Shown in pieces: positions 9,446-48,117 of a stretch of 57,214 nt of DNA; the first letter of the stretch is position 1; each line of letters starts with the position of its first letter. A model generated the notes under the pieces. It worked only from the letters and a program-made list of their open reading frames with translations. It searched no databases and was not told the origin of the DNA. The position numbers and the translations under genes are program-made. The DNA comes from Kocuria subflava. GTDB lineage: Bacteria > Actinomycetota > Actinomycetes > Actinomycetales > Micrococcaceae. The stretch covers positions 45,375 through 102,588 of the forward strand of contig NZ_JAAVUN010000010.1 in NCBI RefSeq assembly GCF_012163155.1, written 5' to 3'.

Positions 9446-10786
9446 TCACTTCTCCTCGGATGCCTCGGCCTCAGCGGAGTCCTCGGCTGCATCCTCAGCA
9501 CCGGCCGGGGTCACGAAAGCGGACAGGTCCACCTTGTTGCCGTCGGTGTCCACAACCTCGGCCTGCTCCAGAACCTTGGCCAGGGCCTTACGACGTCGCA
9601 CCTCGCCAACCATCATTCCGGCCTGACCGGAACCATCCAGCATCTGGGCGAACTGGTTGGGGTCCATGCCGTACTGCTGGGAGGTGGAGATGATGTAGTC
9701 AATCAGCTCGGACTGCTCAACACCCAGTTCTTCCTTGTCCGCCACGGCATCCAGGATGACCTCGTTGCGGAAGGCGGACTTGGCGTTCTCCTCCACCTCG
9801 GAGCGGTGCTCGGGGGTGTCGTGATCGGCATCAGCGTTGGGGTTGTTGAAGTGCTGATCGATCTGTTCCTTGATGACGGACTCGGGCACCTCGACCTCAA
9901 CCAGTCCGACCAGCTGCTCCAGGACCTTGTCGCGGGCCTCAACACCCTGCTCCACCACCACGGAGTCGGCGGCCTGCTTCTTGAGGTCGCCGCGCAGTTC
10001 CTCGATGGTGTCGAATTCGGAGGCCAGCTGGGCAAAGTCGTCGTCGGCCTCGGGCAGCTCGCGCTCCTTGACGGCCGTGACCTTGACCTTGACGGTCGCC
10101 TCCTGACCGGAGTGCTCGCCACCGGCCAGCTTGGTCACGAAGGTGGCGTCCTCGTCAGCGGAGAGCCCGGTCACGGCCTCGTCCATGCCTTCCAGCATGG
10201 TGCCGGAGCCGACCTCGTAGGAGAGATCGTTGGCGGCGTCGACCTCTTCGTCGTCGATCAGGGCCTGCAGGTCCAGGGCGACGAAGTCACCTTCGGCAGC
10301 CGGGCGATCGATGGTCTTGAGGGTGCCAAAGCGGCTACGCAGCTCGTCCAGAGCCTTCTGCTCGTCCTCATCACCTGCGGTGCGGGCTTCCACCTCAACC
10401 TTGAGGCCCTTGTAGTCGGGAAGCTCGATCTCGGGGCGCACGGTGACCTCGATGACGGCCTTGGTGTCGGCCTCGCGGTCCTCAGCGGTGGGCTGCTGGG
10501 ACACTTCCAGCTGCGGCTGGGCGATCGGGGTGAGCTGGTGCTCGGCCAGGGCCTGCTGGAAGAAGGTGTCCATGGCCTCGTTCAGGGCGTTCTCCACCAC
10601 GAACTCGTAGCCAACACGCTGCTCGATCAGCTTGGCCGGGACCTTGCCTACACGGAAGCCGGGGACCTGGATCTGGTTGGCCAGGGACTTGTAGGTCCGG
10701 TCGATAAACGGCTTGAGGTCCGCGAACGGGATCTCCAGATCGATCTTTGCCTGGGTGGGGCTGACGTTTTCGACGGTGCTCTGCAC
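9446..10786 (-). CDS. tig: Trigger factor, ribosome-associated chaperone and prolyl isomerase
   Basis: 446-residue three-domain protein. The N-terminal ribosome-binding domain (about 1-150) contains the [17 protein letters not shown] signature (around 44-60) that contacts the exit tunnel. An FKBP-like PPIase domain (about 155-250) and a helical C-terminal chaperone domain follow, ending in a long acidic Ala/Glu tail. It folds nascent chains and can hand substrates to ClpXP. The clpP1-clpP2-clpX neighbours on the same strand are the usual context. The start is the ATG followed by [11 protein letters not shown], standard for actinobacterial Tig. Confidence 0.96.
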
Positions 10787-36541: not shown

Positions 36542-37354
36542 TCAAGCCCTGGAAATCCGCGAGGCCTCTGCCACTTGATCGTGGGTGGGGCGCACGCCGG
36601 TGTAGAGCACAAACTGTTCTGCTGCCTGCAGGGCGATGACCTCAGCACCTGTGATCACCGGCTTGCCCAGTGCACGTGCTGCCAGGACCAACGGTGTTTC
36701 CGAGGGGAAAGCCACCACGTCAAAGATCACGTTGGCCTGTGCGATCACCGATTCGTGCACTGCGAGCTCATCCTGTGCAGGCCCGCCAGCCATGCCCACA
36801 GGAGTGGCATTCAAAACCAGAGAGGTCTCCAACCCGTCGGCTGTAGGCCTCCAGGTGTGTCCGTACTGCTCAGCCAGGGCCCGTCCGGAAGTTTCGTTGC
36901 GGGCCACCACCGTGCCCGGTCCGAAACCGGCGTTGGTCAAGGCTGCCACCGCTGCTTTGGCCATGCCACCGGAGCCCAGCACCGCAAAGGATCCAGGTCT
37001 CACGTTGTGCGAATCCAGAAGGTCGTAGATGGCCTGGTAGTCCGTGTTGTACGCCGTCAGATGCCCCGCGTTGTTCACGATGGTGTTGACCGACTGAATC
37101 GCCACAGCAGAGTCCGCCATCTCATCCACCATGGCTATGACGTCCTCTTTCCACGGCATGGAAACGGCGCAACCTCGGATCCCCAGTCCCCGGACACCCG
37201 CAATGGCCTGAGTGATGTCGTCCGTGGTGAACGCCTTGTAGATGAAGTCCAGGTCCAGGACCTCATAGAGGTGATTGTGGAATCTGGTCCCAATGTTGGT
37301 GGGCCGGGCCGACAACGAAATGCACAGCTGGGTGTCCTTGGTGATCTCACGCAT
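36542..37354 (-). CDS. Shikimate 5-dehydrogenase-like (AroE-family) protein
   Basis: 270 residues. It has an N-terminal substrate domain with SLSARPTNIG, SMPWKED (catalytic-type K69) and YNTDY (D105), then a Rossmann domain with LGSGGMAKAA binding NADP. Canonical AroE has SxSxSPxxHN; the variant here belongs to a stand-alone shikimate-dehydrogenase-like group, so the true substrate may differ. ATG 37354 chosen because MREITKDTQL aligns with relatives; upstream codons are not conserved. It lies 59 bp after the cupin gene on the same strand, at the end of the SbnA-like cluster, but this type also occurs alone, so membership is uncertain. Confidence 0.82.
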   Translation of the reverse strand: MREITKDTQLCISLSARPTNIGTRFHNHLYEVLDLDFIYKAFTTDDITQAIAGVRGLGIRGCAVSMPWKEDVIAMVDEMADSAVAIQSVNTIVNNAGHLTAYNTDYQAIYDLLDSHNVRPGSFAVLGSGGMAKAAVAALTNAGFGPGTVVARNETSGRALAEQYGHTWRPTADGLETSLVLNATPVGMAGGPAQDELAVHESVIAQANVIFDVVAFPSETPLVLAARALGKPVITGAEVIALQAAEQFVLYTGVRPTHDQVAEASRISRA

Positions 37355-37413
37355 GGGGCAAGATTCCCACTTGGAAGCACTCAGCCATGAATTGTGTCCA
37401 CACATGGCACGGC

Positions 37414-37752
37414 TCAGCCGACGTCTGTGATCACCAAGGTCATACGGGACGCCTCCACGGCCGTGACCGCATGCGGCACACCGGGTGCAAGGTAAAGAAC
37501 GTCTCCCCCGGTCATTCGATGCACCGTGCCATCCACCGTGAAGTCCAGTTCGCCCGAATTGAGCACCACGGCCACAGCCCCCGGTGCGTCGTGTTCGGAC
37601 AGGCCCGCACCGGCATCAAAGGTGAACTGAACCACCCGCATGGCCGGATTGTTGACCAACATGCGGGACTGTTTGTCACCGTCCACCACGGGGTGTGATG
37701 GGGCCAATCCAGTGTGTGCAAGGGATTGGGTGACGGGAGTTGGCTCGGACAT
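37414..37752 (-). CDS. Small single-domain cupin
   Basis: About 112-residue cupin with motif 1-like segment FDAGAGLSEHDAP and motif 2-like segment GDVLYLAPGVPHAV, giving His ligands for a metal. It may bind or isomerise a small product of the neighbouring enzymes. AAAGG precedes ATG 37752. A GTG directly abutting the decarboxylase stop (37869) would add 39 low-complexity residues; I regard that part as untranslated. It lies between the Y4yA-type decarboxylase and the AroE-like gene on the same strand. Single cupins are functionally diverse, so no reaction can be assigned. Confidence 0.78.
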   Translation of the reverse strand: MSEPTPVTQSLAHTGLAPSHPVVDGDKQSRMLVNNPAMRVVQFTFDAGAGLSEHDAPGAVAVVLNSGELDFTVDGTVHRMTGGDVLYLAPGVPHAVTAVEASRMTLVITDVG

Positions 37753-37869
37753 CGCAGGCCTTTCAACGGTGGGTGGCACGGGTCGTGGTCCCACCGTAGG
37801 TCCGACAACCGACCCCTCGCCTTGACCTGGGCCAAGCACGACGACGACGCCGTCGCGCCCCTCAGCCAC

Positions 37870-39360
37870 TCACCAGGTGTCGATGGCGTCTTGAATGAAC
37901 CCAGCCCCGGATGCCACCACGTTGGTGGCCAGCGGAATCTGGTGGGAGGCACTTTCCAGGATGTGCATGAGATAACCAGCCGTGTTGGGCAGCGCAATCA
38001 CATCCCCCACGTTGACTCCCCGGGGAAAATGCAGACGCCGTTTCAGGATCAGCTCCGCCTCAATGCAGTAGGCCCCCACCAGAAAAGCACCATCGGGTGC
38101 ACTCCAGGAATCGGTGGACCCGTGGGACCCATCGACTGATTCAGCCCCTCCGGTTTCACCGGTACGGACCAGAATCGGGTCCACCAGAAAGTCCGCCGAG
38201 GTGGAGCGGCACTGGGTACGGTTCATTTCAAGGCCCACCACGGCAACGTCGTCACTGGTGTGTTTGCGGAACGCCACGCGGGCCAGAGTCAGCCCGCAAC
38301 CATCCAACATGGAGCGGCCTGGCTCGCAGTGCAGGGCCAGGCCACGCTGGCGCAATGCCTGTGCCGCAGTCACACCCGGTGCGATCTCCCCTGTCAGAAC
38401 GGACTCCAGCCATTCACCCCGTACCAGCTCCTGGTGATACGGGTAGGTGTCGCGTTGTCCCGTGACCCGGGGCCCGTCGTCGTGGTCCTCGCAGTACAGG
38501 CCGAGCCCGTCACCCCGCCAGGTCAGCGCGTCGTCGCTGCGCAGGACTGCCTGGTGGAGGGCTTGGCCAAAACGTGACCAGGCGGCGGCGTCGTCAATGT
38601 AGGACATGGGCACTCCCCCACCCATGTCAATGAACTCCACCTGATGACCGCGAGCGCGCAGCTGATCCACAAGATCGATGGCCTGCCCCAACGCTGTAGT
38701 GCGGTGCTGTGGTGCGTAGCCGTGGAGGTGGAAATGCACTCCCACCACCGGCAGGCGCTGTTCGATGTCAGTGGCCTGCTGGCTGTCCAGGAAACGCAGC
38801 CAGATGCTGCTGCGCTCGCCGAACCGTGTGGGGGTGAGTCCGTCCAGGACTTCCGGGGCCAGCCGAAGCACTGCGGGGGAACTGACGCCGGCATCACCGC
38901 TGACCTGGAGCGCCAATGTGGTTTCATCCAGATTGTCCAGGGCCACAGGCACACGGTGCGTCAGGGCATGGTGGAGCAACTCACGGGTCTTGACAGCAGC
39001 GGTCAGGATGATGCGTTCAGCCGGCATGCCCCGCTCCAGCACCTGCGTGAGTTCCCGGTGACTGCCCACGTCGATGCCATGACCCAGGTCCCGCACGGCA
39101 TCCACCAGCCCAACGGTCTTGTTGGCCTTGCGCGCCACGAACACGCGTAGATCAACACTGTGCCGGGCTGCCGCATCCACCATGTCCCGGGCGTTGCGTT
39201 GCAGGCTGGAGAAGTTGTGCACGTTGACCGGGCTGCCGAACTCCGTCACTAGGGAAGCGCACGTTTCCCGGTCGGTCAGCAGGTCAGACATCCACGGTTC
39301 CAGACGCGCCGGCAAGGCGGGTTCACCGTGGACAGCCTGCCTGAGATCACTCTGGGTCAC
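37870..39360 (-). CDS. Y4yA-type PLP-dependent decarboxylase (DapDC/SbnH-like fold III)
   Basis: 496 residues; alanine-racemase-type barrel plus beta domain. ARKANK holds the PLP lysine (K78), GGGVPMSYIDD is the PLP-phosphate glycine loop, and LHCEPGRSMLDGCG and the later VGAYCIEAELI correspond to the diaminopimelate/ornithine decarboxylase substrate and dimer motifs. Relatives include SbnH, which decarboxylates a diaminopropionate-citrate intermediate of staphyloferrin B. GTG 39360 overlaps the stop of the FAD protein by 4 bp (GTGA), so it is translationally coupled. It likely decarboxylates an amino acid made by the upstream SbnA-like and FAD enzymes. Confidence 0.85.
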   Translation of the reverse strand: MTQSDLRQAVHGEPALPARLEPWMSDLLTDRETCASLVTEFGSPVNVHNFSSLQRNARDMVDAAARHSVDLRVFVARKANKTVGLVDAVRDLGHGIDVGSHRELTQVLERGMPAERIILTAAVKTRELLHHALTHRVPVALDNLDETTLALQVSGDAGVSSPAVLRLAPEVLDGLTPTRFGERSSIWLRFLDSQQATDIEQRLPVVGVHFHLHGYAPQHRTTALGQAIDLVDQLRARGHQVEFIDMGGGVPMSYIDDAAAWSRFGQALHQAVLRSDDALTWRGDGLGLYCEDHDDGPRVTGQRDTYPYHQELVRGEWLESVLTGEIAPGVTAAQALRQRGLALHCEPGRSMLDGCGLTLARVAFRKHTSDDVAVVGLEMNRTQCRSTSADFLVDPILVRTGETGGAESVDGSHGSTDSWSAPDGAFLVGAYCIEAELILKRRLHFPRGVNVGDVIALPNTAGYLMHILESASHQIPLATNVVASGAGFIQDAIDTW

Positions 39361-41039
39361 GGCGTGCCTCCTGGTCTTTGCGTGATGTGCTCCACCACTG
39401 CCTGCGCCCATCCTTGCGGCATGGTGTGGAGGGCGCGGTTCAGGGTGTCATGACCCAGCACGTGGTCCTCCGTGGGGCGCCCGATCACCGAAAGTCCCGC
39501 CACGGCCTGCCCTGAACTGTTCAGGGCCTGCCCACTGGGCGTGACCATGACTCCTCGCCTGCCAGGCGGCACCGTCAGTGTCCCGCGTTCCAACAAGCTC
39601 AGGTACATCGGTTGGTCCGTCCCCACCACACCAGGCGGGGGCAGCACGGCATCAATCACGACGTCGGGACGGGGTTCTGATTCATCCAGGCCCGTGATCC
39701 CTGTGGCAGCGATTCCCACGCCTTGACGCATCCACAAGGCATCGACCACACCGGCCTGAATGAGTGCGGCAATCTTGCGGGCGTTGAGCAGTGGTGGGCC
39801 AAAGGCCAGGCGTTCCATGGTCACGGCCATCTGTCGGAATTGCGCCCAGTCCCCAGCATCCAGGTCACGAAAGCTCACGACCTGGACCAGCGCCGGATAG
39901 AGCTTGGCCCACGCAGCACCCAAGGCCCAGGCTGCTCCGGGATCAGCTCGTCCTTCTGCCACCTCAATGCTGCGGGTGAAAACACGCACTGCGCGGTTGA
40001 GTCTCTCGGAACCAGGTTCAGCGCCGTTGCGGGCCGTGTAGGAGACCTCCCAGGCGGCATCACTGGCGGTGCTGCGGGTGCACCTGTCCAGGATCTCCGC
40101 GGCTGCGTGCTGGACGGTGTTGATCACCTCTGTGATGGTGCACTGCGCAGCCAGGCGGACCCGTGCGTGGTCCAGGACCGTGTCCAGATCCTCCACAGTC
40201 ACGCACGGGCCGCTCTTGGCATCCAGGAACAGCCCGGACCGTGTGACGGGCAGAATCCTGGAGGGTTCCTGCCCGCTGGGGATGTAGCGCAGGTGGCCGT
40301 CCTCCCCTGTGGTGAACACGCCTCCGCGCCCTTGGGTGAGCGCCAAGCAGACATCGATGAACGTGAGAGCACCACCCCGCACAGCCACCGTTGCACCTGC
40401 CGGGATCTTTGACTGGGACAGCCATTGCTGGACCGGATAGACCTGTGGGACCAGTGGGATCTCAGCCGACCAGGTGTGTTTCAGGGCGCCGTCGTGATCC
40501 GGGGCGTGCCCGGTGGCCAACAGAACCTGCCGGTACGGTCCGTGCTGTTCACCGTCTGCGGTGTGCACCACCCACCTCGGCTCCGCGCTGTCCCCACCCA
40601 CAGCCGTCAGATCCACGGCCCGGGCAGTCACGGTGTTCCACTGGAGATCCGAGCACACCTCCTGCACGCGGTTCCAGGCGCAGTGAAGATATTCACCCAC
40701 GGTGGAGCGCGGTGGAAAGCTCTCCTGATCGCGCTGCGGAGCATGTTCGACTGCCCACTGGTGGAAGCTCGGCACAAAGCGTTCGGCGGCACCGGGTTCG
40801 TGAGCATCCACGATGCCTGCGGACACGTTCAGACGCAGATATTCAGGTTGATCCGGCGCGTAGGCGCTGCCCGCATAGGGGTTGGTGTCGATCACGTCCA
40901 CCGCAACGCGGGGAACCTCACCGCCTGCAGCCAATAGCCTGCGCACCAGGGATTCCAGGGCGAACAGTGCCTTGGGCCCGGCCCCGACCACACCGATCCT
41001 GTAGACGCCGTCCAACGCCGCCTCAGCCGAACCGTTCAT
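39357..41039 (-). CDS. FAD/NAD(P)-binding oxidoreductase of the SbnA-like cluster
   Basis: 560-residue protein with an N-terminal dinucleotide site VVGAGPKA (18-24) and features of the FAD-NAD(P)-binding family (pfam13454 type), such as NPYAGSAYAPDQPEYLRLN and VGEYLHCAW. No substrate is known for this group. Its start overlaps the SbnA-like stop by 4 bp and its stop overlaps the decarboxylase start by 4 bp, so the three are made together. In the canonical L-2,3-diaminopropionate pathway an NAD enzyme, SbnB, oxidatively hydrolyses the SbnA product; no SbnB homologue is present, so this flavoprotein could act at that step. That is inference. Confidence 0.8.
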   Translation of the reverse strand: MNGSAEAALDGVYRIGVVGAGPKALFALESLVRRLLAAGGEVPRVAVDVIDTNPYAGSAYAPDQPEYLRLNVSAGIVDAHEPGAAERFVPSFHQWAVEHAPQRDQESFPPRSTVGEYLHCAWNRVQEVCSDLQWNTVTARAVDLTAVGGDSAEPRWVVHTADGEQHGPYRQVLLATGHAPDHDGALKHTWSAEIPLVPQVYPVQQWLSQSKIPAGATVAVRGGALTFIDVCLALTQGRGGVFTTGEDGHLRYIPSGQEPSRILPVTRSGLFLDAKSGPCVTVEDLDTVLDHARVRLAAQCTITEVINTVQHAAAEILDRCTRSTASDAAWEVSYTARNGAEPGSERLNRAVRVFTRSIEVAEGRADPGAAWALGAAWAKLYPALVQVVSFRDLDAGDWAQFRQMAVTMERLAFGPPLLNARKIAALIQAGVVDALWMRQGVGIAATGITGLDESEPRPDVVIDAVLPPPGVVGTDQPMYLSLLERGTLTVPPGRRGVMVTPSGQALNSSGQAVAGLSVIGRPTEDHVLGHDTLNRALHTMPQGWAQAVVEHITQRPGGTP

Positions 41040-42052
41040 GCGTTGGCCTCCGTCAGTTCCTGCACACTGCGTTCCATCGATTCAGGTGACACGCCCAGAT
41101 GCTGGGCCACCCAGTCGTCGTCGTACACGGTGTTCATGTACGGCAGCCCACCATCATGTACCAGCATGGCCACGCGCTGCAGTCCAGGGTGTTCTGTGAG
41201 CAGCCTGGCCACCGCGTGGACCACCGCCCCGGTGGAGGCACCGGCCAGAATCCCCTCAGTCCGTGCCAGGGCCCGGGCTCCCGCCACGCAGTCCCGCTCC
41301 CCCACCCGGAGCACCTGGTCCGGCGTCACAGTCCGGGAGAGGTCCGTGACAAACCCAGCCCCCATACCGGGAAGATTGCGTGGTCCTGCCGTGCCCCCGA
41401 ACAACACACTGCCCACGGCATCCACCGCGATGACCTTGGTTTTCATGCCGTGTTCCCTGATGTAGGCAGCACACCCGCTGATGGTTCCCGTGGTGCTGCA
41501 CGCCGCCACCACCGCATCCAGCTGGTGATCGGTGGCTTCCGCGATTTCACGCATGGTGCCGTCACGGTGGGAACCCGGGTTGGCCGGATTGCCGTACTGG
41601 TAGAGGTTCACAGCGCCCGGGATCTCCTGCAGGAGCTGTTGGACCCGCTTGATCCGGGCCGTCAGAAGATCCCCGGTCTCCGGGTCCGGCTCCATGACCA
41701 GCTCGATCTTCCCGCCCAGGGCCTTGATGGCAGCAACGGTGGTGGTGTTGGCCCGTGAATCCACCACACACACGAACGTGATGCCACGGACGGTGCAGCT
41801 GCGGGCAAGAGCAAGCCCCAGATTGCCGGAGCTGGACTCAACCACCGTGCCACCCGGGGCCAGCTCGCCAGTGGCAAGTGCTGCATCCAACATGGCTGCT
41901 GCCGGACGATCCTTGGCGCTACCGCCCGGATTGACGGATTCCACCTTGGCCAGGACCTGGGTATGAGGAAAGAGTCGGGAAAGGCGTACCAACGGGGTGT
42001 TTCCCACCGCGGCTGAGATGTCATCCACGATGCGTCCATCAGGTCTAGTCAC
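41036..42052 (-). CDS. SbnA-like PLP-dependent synthase (cysteine synthase superfamily)
   Basis: 338-residue fold-type II enzyme. NPGGSAKDR carries the PLP lysine (K47). ESSSGNLGLA (about 72-81) is the SbnA-type substrate loop, unlike the GTSGNTG of the true CysK at 46525. SbnA makes N-(2-amino-2-carboxyethyl)-L-glutamate from O-phosphoserine and glutamate, a diaminopropionate precursor. The C-terminal extension (LGVSPESME) also recalls SbnA. It starts at GTG 42052; TATGCT six bases upstream would place transcription at the GTG, so the mRNA may be leaderless. It is the first gene of the coupled cluster and divergent from def. Confidence 0.87.
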   Translation of the reverse strand: MTRPDGRIVDDISAAVGNTPLVRLSRLFPHTQVLAKVESVNPGGSAKDRPAAAMLDAALATGELAPGGTVVESSSGNLGLALARSCTVRGITFVCVVDSRANTTTVAAIKALGGKIELVMEPDPETGDLLTARIKRVQQLLQEIPGAVNLYQYGNPANPGSHRDGTMREIAEATDHQLDAVVAACSTTGTISGCAAYIREHGMKTKVIAVDAVGSVLFGGTAGPRNLPGMGAGFVTDLSRTVTPDQVLRVGERDCVAGARALARTEGILAGASTGAVVHAVARLLTEHPGLQRVAMLVHDGGLPYMNTVYDDDWVAQHLGVSPESMERSVQELTEANA

Positions 42053-46524: not shown

Positions 46525-47460
46525 ATGGCCAAGATTTACAACAACGTCACTGACCTGGTCGGCGGAACCCCCCTGGTCCGCCTCAACGAGCTGGACAAGG
46601 ACCTCCCCGGCAACGTGGCCGTCAAGTTGGAGTTCTACAACCCGGCAAACTCCGTGAAGGACCGTATCGGCAAGGCCATTGTGGACGCCGCCGAGGCATC
46701 CGGTGAACTCAAGGCCGGCGGCACCATCGTGGAAGGCACCTCCGGCAACACCGGCATCGCCCTGGCCATGGTGGGTGCAGCCCGCGGTTACAAGGTCATC
46801 CTGACCATGCCGGAGACCATGTCCACCGAGCGTCGCGCCATGCTGCGTGCCTTTGGCGCAGAGATCGTGTTGACCCCGGGTGCTGAGGGCATGCGCGGTG
46901 CCGTGGATCGTGCCCGCGAGATCGTGGAGAACACGGAGAACGCCGTTCTGGCCCGCCAGTTCGAGAACCAGGCCAACCCCACCGTCCACTACAACACCAC
47001 CGGCCCGGAGATCTGGGAAGACACCGACGGCGGCGTGGACATCTTTGTGGCAGGCATCGGCACCGGCGGCACCATCACGGGTGCCGGCCGTTACCTCAAG
47101 GAGCAGAACTCCGGGGTGCGCCTGGTTGCCGTGGAGCCCGCCGACTCCCCGCTGCTGACCGAGGGCAAGGCCGGCCCGCACAAGATTCAGGGCCTGGGCG
47201 CCAACTTCGTGCCGGACATCCTGGACAAGGAGATCTACGACGACGTCTACGACGTCACCACCGATGACTCCATCCGTGTCGCAAGAGAGCTTGGCACCAA
47301 AGAAGGCATCCTGGGCGGCATCTCCTCCGGCGCCATCGTGTGGGCTGCCCTGGAAGAGGCCAAGAAGGAAGAGAACCGGGACAAGCTGATCGTGGCCGTG
47401 GTCTGCGACTTCGGTGAGCGTTACATCTCCACCATCCTGTACGACGACATCCGCGGCTGA
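46525..47460 (+). CDS. cysK: Cysteine synthase A (O-acetylserine sulfhydrylase)
   Basis: 311-residue fold-type II PLP enzyme forming L-cysteine from O-acetylserine and sulfide. PLP lysine K45 is in NSVKDR; GTSGNTG (71-77) is the canonical substrate loop. GISSGA near 265 binds the PLP pyridine. GGAAGG sits 9 nt before ATG 46525. cysE follows after a terminator-like hairpin; the two enzymes normally form the cysteine synthase complex. Compare the SbnA-like paralogue at 41036, whose loop differs. Confidence 0.96.
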   Translation: MAKIYNNVTDLVGGTPLVRLNELDKDLPGNVAVKLEFYNPANSVKDRIGKAIVDAAEASGELKAGGTIVEGTSGNTGIALAMVGAARGYKVILTMPETMSTERRAMLRAFGAEIVLTPGAEGMRGAVDRAREIVENTENAVLARQFENQANPTVHYNTTGPEIWEDTDGGVDIFVAGIGTGGTITGAGRYLKEQNSGVRLVAVEPADSPLLTEGKAGPHKIQGLGANFVPDILDKEIYDDVYDVTTDDSIRVARELGTKEGILGGISSGAIVWAALEEAKKEENRDKLIVAVVCDFGERYISTILYDDIRG

Positions 47461-47474
47461 TCACCCGTATGTCC

Positions 47475-47513
47475 TGCCCCTGGCGTGTGTGACCACGCGC
47501 CAGGGGCATTTTG
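47475..47513 (+). terminator. Terminator/attenuator between cysK and cysE
   Basis: TGCCCCTGGCGTGTG pairs (one mismatch) with CACGCGCCAGGGGCA, followed by TTTT. It lies 20 bp upstream of cysE and so would reduce read-through from cysK. Confidence 0.8.
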
Positions 47514-47532
47514 CCCCACCACAAGGAGTCAC

Positions 47533-48117
47533 GTGAGTTTTCTGAGCCGACTGCGCGAGGACCTGGACACTGCACGCACCCACGATCCTGCTGCTCGCAC
47601 GGATCTGGAGGTGGCCCTGAACTATTCAGGTATGCATGCCATCTGGTTGCACCGTGTCAGCCATCGCTTGTGGCAGACCGACCGCACTCGTGGTGCTGCC
47701 CGTACGGTCTCGCAGCTCGGCCGGTTCCTCACCGGCGTGGAGATCCACCCCGGTGCACAGATCGGCCGTCGCTTCTTCATCGATCACGGCATGGGTGTGG
47801 TGATCGGAGAAACCGCTGAGATCGGCGACGACGTCATGCTGTATCAGGGGGTGACCCTGGGCGGGACGTCACTGGCAGCCGTCAAGCGCCACCCCACCAT
47901 TGGTGATGGTGTCACTGTGGGCGCAGGTGCCAAGGTCTTGGGTGACATCCAGATCGGTGCAGGATCCGCTGTTGGAGCCAATGCCGTGGTGGTCAAGGAC
48001 GTTCCCGATGACTCCGTGGTCACCGGCATTCCGGGCAAGGCTCGACCCCGGACCCCGGACAAGCAGGAGCCTCTGGTGGATCCGGCCACCTACATCGATC
48101 CCGCCATGTGGATCTGA
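47533..48117 (+). CDS. cysE: Serine O-acetyltransferase (short EpsC/CysE type)
   Basis: 194-residue left-handed beta-helix acetyltransferase making O-acetylserine from serine and acetyl-CoA. [22 protein letters not shown] and the following GVTLGGTS and HPTIGDGV repeats are the hexapeptide-rich catalytic core. It is the short form lacking the long helical N-terminal domain of E. coli CysE. GTG 47533 has AAGGAG 5 nt upstream; the longer frame includes the cysK terminator and is rejected. It is partner to cysK immediately upstream. Confidence 0.93.

Follow-up and report, generated by a model that had tools for sequence, protein, structure and literature searches.

What would an SbnA-type synthase make when its gene overlaps those of a flavoprotein and a decarboxylase, and no gene for SbnB accompanies it? 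The question is raised by a locus of Kocuria subflava (assembly of 3.03 Mb in 284 contigs) within a stretch of 57,214 nucleotides analysed as a whole (hereafter the window; positions 45375-102588 of contig NZ_JAAVUN010000010.1, C2 in our numbering), where genes for an SbnA-like fold-II pyridoxal 5'-phosphate (PLP) synthase, a flavin adenine dinucleotide (FAD) protein and a Y4yA-type fold-III PLP decarboxylase follow one another on the minus strand. The initial annotation had joined this trio with a cupin and an AroE-like gene into one cluster without SbnB or a nonribosomal peptide synthetase (NRPS)-independent siderophore (NIS) synthetase. Linkage of the three genes, fusion of two of them, the fold class of the flavoprotein, the SbnA-type active site and a changed substrate pocket were established by computation. 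The reading that we favour, at a probability of about 45%, is a self-contained biosynthetic cassette for adduct formation, decarboxylation and N-oxygenation, whose reactions, order, nucleophile, product and role we infer.

Linkage and history of the three genes

Related loci were collected by a pattern scan, with the alignment of the FAD protein as query, over the 84,980 species genomes in genome_contigs, and the best 80 of 119 relatives were kept. A sample picked by FAD similarity describes the company kept by close FAD relatives, not by every SbnA or Y4yA gene, and Y4yA genes with other partners exist on Sinorhizobium and Mycobacterium avium plasmids. All three genes were present in 75 of the 80 loci, in the order SbnA-FAD-Y4yA on one strand in all 75, and with domain spacings below 300 and below 400 nt in 72 (exceptions L055, L087 and L105). 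Four of the other five loci (L069, L073, L094, L098) are short or cut by a contig end, and truncation may account for the missing gene; the fifth, L106, holds the FAD gene only. Among 99 relative genomes, that of the window included, 13 gave a FAD match at E ≤ 1e-30 (within the genus, 5 of 27 genomes, again counting the window's own), and the same gene order was found in 11 of these loci (the 11 trio genomes, own included), the FAD gene standing without partners in 2. The trio is also plasmid-borne, in Sulfitobacter and Tsukamurella. The three genes are thus the unit, with linkage beyond chance confirmed, and the coupling that the initial annotation had claimed extends to close FAD relatives, where the genes are mostly together and not apart. 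On the Tsukamurella paurometabola plasmid pTpau01 (L005, 9001-10434), the FAD gene of the trio is listed only as its 3' half (9715-10434, hypothetical protein); the frame is actually open from before 9001, and the PLSDB gene table is incomplete.

The FAD and Y4yA domains share a single frame with no intervening stop codon in 8 of the 75 loci (Kocuria palustris, Brachybacterium tyrofermentans, Propioniciclava sinopodophylli and five Corynebacterium), and the fusion is also present in a same-genus genome (G020, locus L025); no FAD-SbnA fusion was found in the open reading frame (ORF) list of the kept loci. Pairwise distances among the three proteins are correlated at 0.776, 0.655 and 0.659, against permuted maxima of 0.10-0.12. 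Carriers belong to six phyla (Actinomycetota, Planctomycetota, Pseudomonadota, Verrucomicrobiota, Gemmatimonadota and Acidobacteriota), and in a quick tree of the FAD protein, for which a careful search was not completed, the grouping mostly follows the phyla, at 6 label changes against a minimum possible of 5. Since Kocuria polaris is separate from the other Kocuria in this tree, descent of the cassette was not vertical throughout; it looks to be of old date and retained in patches.

Gene junctions, active sites and folds

The SbnA-like gene (41036-42052, GTG start) ends in a 4-bp overlap with the start of the FAD gene (ATGA, 41036-41039), and the FAD gene (39357-41039) shares a second one with the decarboxylase gene (37870-39360; GTGA, 39357-39360), which presumes a GTG start at 39360, the alternative being a longer ATG ORF from 39411. 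With the cupin and AroE-like genes, likewise on the minus strand, all five genes lie at the place, and the trio has the overlaps, given by the initial annotation. Tallies of (A/G/T)TGA (49 and 46 of 75) were not used as evidence of overlap, because every TGA stop without a preceding C passes.

The SbnA-like protein passes the TIGR03945 model narrowly (355.6 bits, cut-off 349.95), and its best PDB relative is S. aureus SbnA (5d84). Arg132, Tyr152 and Ser185 of SbnA are held responsible for selective O-phosphoserine binding in the excerpted text of PMC12414870; their equivalents in the window protein are R133, Y153 and S186, and across the trio enzymes the three columns hold R in 75/75, Y in 75/75 and S in 73/75 (Gly in the other two). 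The cysteine synthase CysK of the window (46525-47460), used as a control, has A, F and G there, which makes it unlikely, on sequence grounds, that the SbnA-like enzyme is a mere sulfhydrylase, and the SbnA-type identity first assigned to it would stand. The same columns hold R, S and G in the Sinorhizobium SbnA-like protein, and R, Y and G in both SbnA-like proteins of the M. avium plasmid. The control gene is an ordinary cysteine synthase gene, followed by a serine acetyltransferase-like gene (together 46525-48117; read by eye from the translation).

The FAD protein (Pfam NAD_binding_9, 87.2 bits) has a three-domain fold (FAD-binding, NADP-binding and helical substrate domains) that, over nearly its full length, is that of the FzmM/CreE L-aspartate N-hydroxylases and of PcxL, and it shares with them the class B catalytic Asn near the flavin C4a (N71; kept in 74 of 75 relatives, with one gap). 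It differs from FzmM/CreE in adjoining SbnA-like and Y4yA genes and in its substrate pocket: the aspartate-contact motif RxxRNxxR (Asn413 and Arg416 of 8cp2) is found in 0 of 76 trio proteins, at the Asn413 and Arg416 columns the window protein has Pro and Val, while of 75 relatives one keeps the Asn and two the Arg, and the Arg412 column is Tyr in 73. An equation of 8cp2 Arg577 with Arg535 was dropped, because the alignment leaves that stretch unresolved. In a class-wide search, the window's genome scored 684 bits, G070 623 and the FAD-only G065 445, with all others at or below 216. The window's own genome has one more relative of the FAD protein, a distant one, on a different contig from the trio (G000:C146:25333-26682; L002, L003), in a 959-codon open frame. 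A diverged relative on a Pseudosulfitobacter plasmid (L009, 6986-8656) lies beside genes of acyl-CoA metabolism, and neither SbnA nor Y4yA is annotated in that stretch.

The decarboxylase matches Orn_Arg_deC_N (PF02784, 91.3 bits), and its relatives are annotated as 'Y4yA family PLP-dependent enzyme'; in the NCBIfam search no model named Y4yA matched. Across 13 decarboxylase sequences, K78 (in ARKANK), which we take to be the PLP lysine, E346-R349 (EPGR) and C432 are invariant.

Proposed pathway

In the proposed cassette, the SbnA-like enzyme would eliminate phosphate from O-phospho-L-serine and add an amine nucleophile, giving an N-(2-amino-2-carboxyethyl) adduct; for SbnA itself the nucleophile is L-glutamate, and the product with O-phosphoserine is N-(1-amino-1-carboxyl-2-ethyl)-glutamic acid (ACEGA). 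The Y4yA-type enzyme would then remove the carboxyl group of the half that stems from serine, leaving an aminoethyl group of the ethylenediamine type, and the FzmM-type flavoprotein, using NADPH and O2, would oxidise a nitrogen of the compound: a single round would give a hydroxylamine, repeated rounds an oxime or a nitro group. Neither SbnB nor NIS synthetase nor citrate would take part in making the product, a small N-oxygenated amino acid or aminocarboxylate. For the step from decarboxylase to N-hydroxylase, desferrioxamine biosynthesis offers a precedent, in which a decarboxylase likewise supplies a flavin N-hydroxylase (PMC7347517, as excerpted), and the FAD-Y4yA fusion fits it. Taken more broadly, the trio would encode an NRPS- and NIS-free pathway, old enough to run largely along phylum lines in the six phyla, by which three enzymes convert O-phosphoserine plus another amine to a small molecule that is decarboxylated and bears oxygen on nitrogen (as a hydroxylamine, oxime or nitro group), and whose oxygenase and decarboxylase have become one protein in several lineages. 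This is a tentative proposal, to which we would give somewhat less than even odds.

Several points weigh against the cassette as drawn. Identity of the FAD protein to 8cp2 is 24%, its weaker fold matches include Baeyer-Villiger and other flavoproteins, and a fold is evidence of family, not of reaction; the Arg409 column of the 8cp2 Arg cluster is, moreover, still Arg in 46 of 75. The nucleophile is unreadable from sequence, and a gene order with the FAD gene before the decarboxylase gene is no proof of reaction order. Three FAD relatives lack the partner genes (L028, L031, L106), and no replaced partner is evident among their tested neighbours (phospholipase D, phosphotransacetylase, amino acid permease, an aminomethyltransferase-type protein, methyltransferase, sulfur and formate/nitrite transporters). 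No constant exporter, regulator or further enzyme accompanies the trio in the 80 loci, with 30 neighbours searched against Pfam, which is odd for a secreted product, and no enzyme of the trio is described in the openly licensed literature, among the matches listed.

Alternative explanations

In the initial annotation the flavoprotein took the place of SbnB, oxidising the adduct to L-diaminopropionate (and a keto acid), which the Y4yA-type enzyme would decarboxylate to ethylenediamine or a derivative. The cluster does lack SbnB, as annotated: TIGR03944 was above cut-off in 0 of the 11 trio genomes (best score in the window's own genome 89.2 bits against 326.9), a picture made less clean by the wider ornithine cyclodeaminase family (PF02423), present elsewhere in 9 of the 11, own included. 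On the M. avium plasmid, an ornithine cyclodeaminase gene sits at the FAD gene's place between the SbnA-like and Y4yA genes, and in Sinorhizobium an opine dehydrogenase gene adjoins the SbnA-like gene. The full-length match of the flavoprotein, however, is an NADPH-using N-hydroxylase, of a type that oxygenates nitrogen, not an amine oxidase or dehydrogenase, and the class B catalytic Asn is retained; the substitution is unlikely. Were the flavoprotein instead to act first on an amino acid or amine, the resulting hydroxylamine could be the nucleophile that the SbnA-like enzyme adds to O-phosphoserine, with decarboxylation following. O-ureidoserine synthase, a homologue of SbnA in the PDB list for the SbnA-like protein, uses an N-hydroxy nucleophile. 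FzmM too oxidises a free amino acid (PMC10404684, in the part available), but the trio's FAD protein does not keep the aspartate-contacting residues, and where fused it is joined to the decarboxylase and not to the SbnA-like enzyme, so that we consider this order improbable. A very unlikely variant gives the SbnA-like enzyme a non-amine nucleophile such as sulfite, leading to an N-oxygenated taurine-like or other beta-substituted ethylamine; PcxL, which belongs to the same group of N-oxygenases, converts a 2-aminoethyl compound, 2-aminoethylphosphonate, to an oxime, according to the excerpt of PMC10404684. The SbnA-like protein is matched by the cysteate synthase model too, but at 172 bits, far below the 600 that this model requires, while it does pass the SbnA model, if narrowly.

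A further question is one of role only and is compatible with the cassette. The product could be a secreted aminocarboxylate metallophore of the ethylenediaminedisuccinate (EDDS) or rhizobactin type, in which N-oxygenation provides an extra metal ligand. The Sinorhizobium Y4yA/SbnA-like pair lies with IucA/IucC and MFS genes, and ABC genes are found upstream of the trio in Kocuria polaris (family-5 solute-binding protein; L076, 2012-8695) and Corynebacterium pacaense (permease; L091, 2598-7517). For metal regulation, the 300 bp upstream of the SbnA-like gene were scanned in 81 loci (the 80 and the window, a few shortened by contig ends) with consensus boxes for DtxR, Zur (three forms), Fur, NikR and MntR, a kind of scan in which diverged sites may be missed. 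No DtxR, Fur, NikR or MntR box was found in these 81 upstream regions, and the one weak Zur-like match, against 0.5 expected, was in the planctomycete Aporhodopirellula. Because metal-regulator boxes are lacking and no transporter is constant, a dedicated metallophore is mildly disfavoured, and we regard this role as doubtful. An osmolyte role also came under consideration, since the names or sources of several carriers suggest marine or saline habitats.

No IucA/IucC match was found in the whole of the window's own genome, so the absence of a NIS synthetase was annotated correctly; the search did not extend to NRPS genes or to the other transporters of the window. As to co-occurrence of transporters or IucA/IucC with the trio, raised as a check by the initial annotation, no transporter is constant in the 80 loci, and 7 of the 11 trio genomes have IucA/IucC genes at a distance from the trio, on the same contig at about 12 kb in G026 and about 46 kb in G020. 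These genes, and the Sinorhizobium pair beside IucA/IucC, blur the separation from citrate-type synthetases.

Neighbouring genes

The small cupin gene (37414-37752, minus strand; Cupin_2, 35.6 bits) and the AroE-like shikimate dehydrogenase gene (36542-37405, minus strand; NF009202, 427 bits, cut-off 306) are neighbours and no conserved part of the locus. In 15 related loci (tblastn, E ≤ 1e-5), no cupin homologue was found in any, and the one AroE gene close to the trio lies about 1.4 kb downstream of it, in Kocuria soli (L023). Both look like bystanders, and of the five-gene cluster the linked trio remains.

Other neighbours were surveyed by an all-against-all comparison of ORFs in the 80 loci, called by a simple heuristic and no gene finder, and by Pfam searches of the 30 neighbours, 2 of which matched nothing. 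The largest ORF groups outside the trio span 17 and 13 loci (13 and 11 genera), scattered and at varying distances, and the families identified (arginine deiminase, MFS, ABC, SDR, LacI, sulfatase and others) include none that is constant. An arginine deiminase gene is divergent to the trio in Demequina activiva (L099, 7508-8761), and ORFs of nearly equal size lie at the corresponding place in L085, L100 and L107. ORFs related to the ABC genes of K. polaris and C. pacaense are also found in two Brachybacterium loci (L038, L042).

Relation to known systems

The SbnA/SbnB pathway to L-2,3-diaminopropionate (staphyloferrin B) shares with the trio an SbnA-type synthase with the R/Y/S residues; the trio differs in having no SbnB above cut-off, no IucA/IucC match in the window's genome, and a flavin N-oxygenase and Y4yA decarboxylase instead. 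On the Sinorhizobium plasmid pSS05631a (L007, 6980-13585), a tight run of Y4yA, SbnA-like, opine dehydrogenase, IucA/IucC and MFS genes adjoins nodulation and type III secretion genes, and suggests a route to a rhizobactin-type chelator. Y4yA adjoins the SbnA-like gene there as in the trio, but that locus has opine dehydrogenase, NIS synthetase and MFS genes, no annotated FAD gene, and R/S/G in place of R/Y/S. On the Mycobacterium avium plasmid pMAH135 (L008, 5262-10753), SbnA-like, ornithine cyclodeaminase, Y4yA and MATE exporter genes form one run.

That the locus might itself be the EDDS (aes) cluster, as we presume that cluster to be composed, was considered, with no decision either way. 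The genes for [S,S]-EDDS in Amycolatopsis japonicum (aes) are alike as a proposed NRPS- and NIS-independent chelator route (PMC4993170, as excerpted); they are Zur-controlled according to the reviews, in the passages available, whereas the single Zur-like match of the trio is the planctomycete one. In alanosine biosynthesis diaminopropionate is proposed to be N-hydroxylated too, by a different flavoenzyme (excerpts of PMC7347517 and PMC11705231). Within the openly licensed literature, the three-gene set is not described in the title or opening of the abstract among the matches listed.

The cassette is a new combination of known enzyme families, and it looks like a complete small pathway of three genes, two in some species, in which serine is joined to another amine, a carboxyl is removed and oxygen is put on nitrogen, the product probably being a small metabolite. 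If this is true, the flavoprotein would be an FzmM-type N-oxygenase acting on a non-aspartate substrate, and the trio would be a minimal route to N-oxygenated ethylenediamine-type compounds across six phyla that genome mining based on NRPS or NIS genes would miss.

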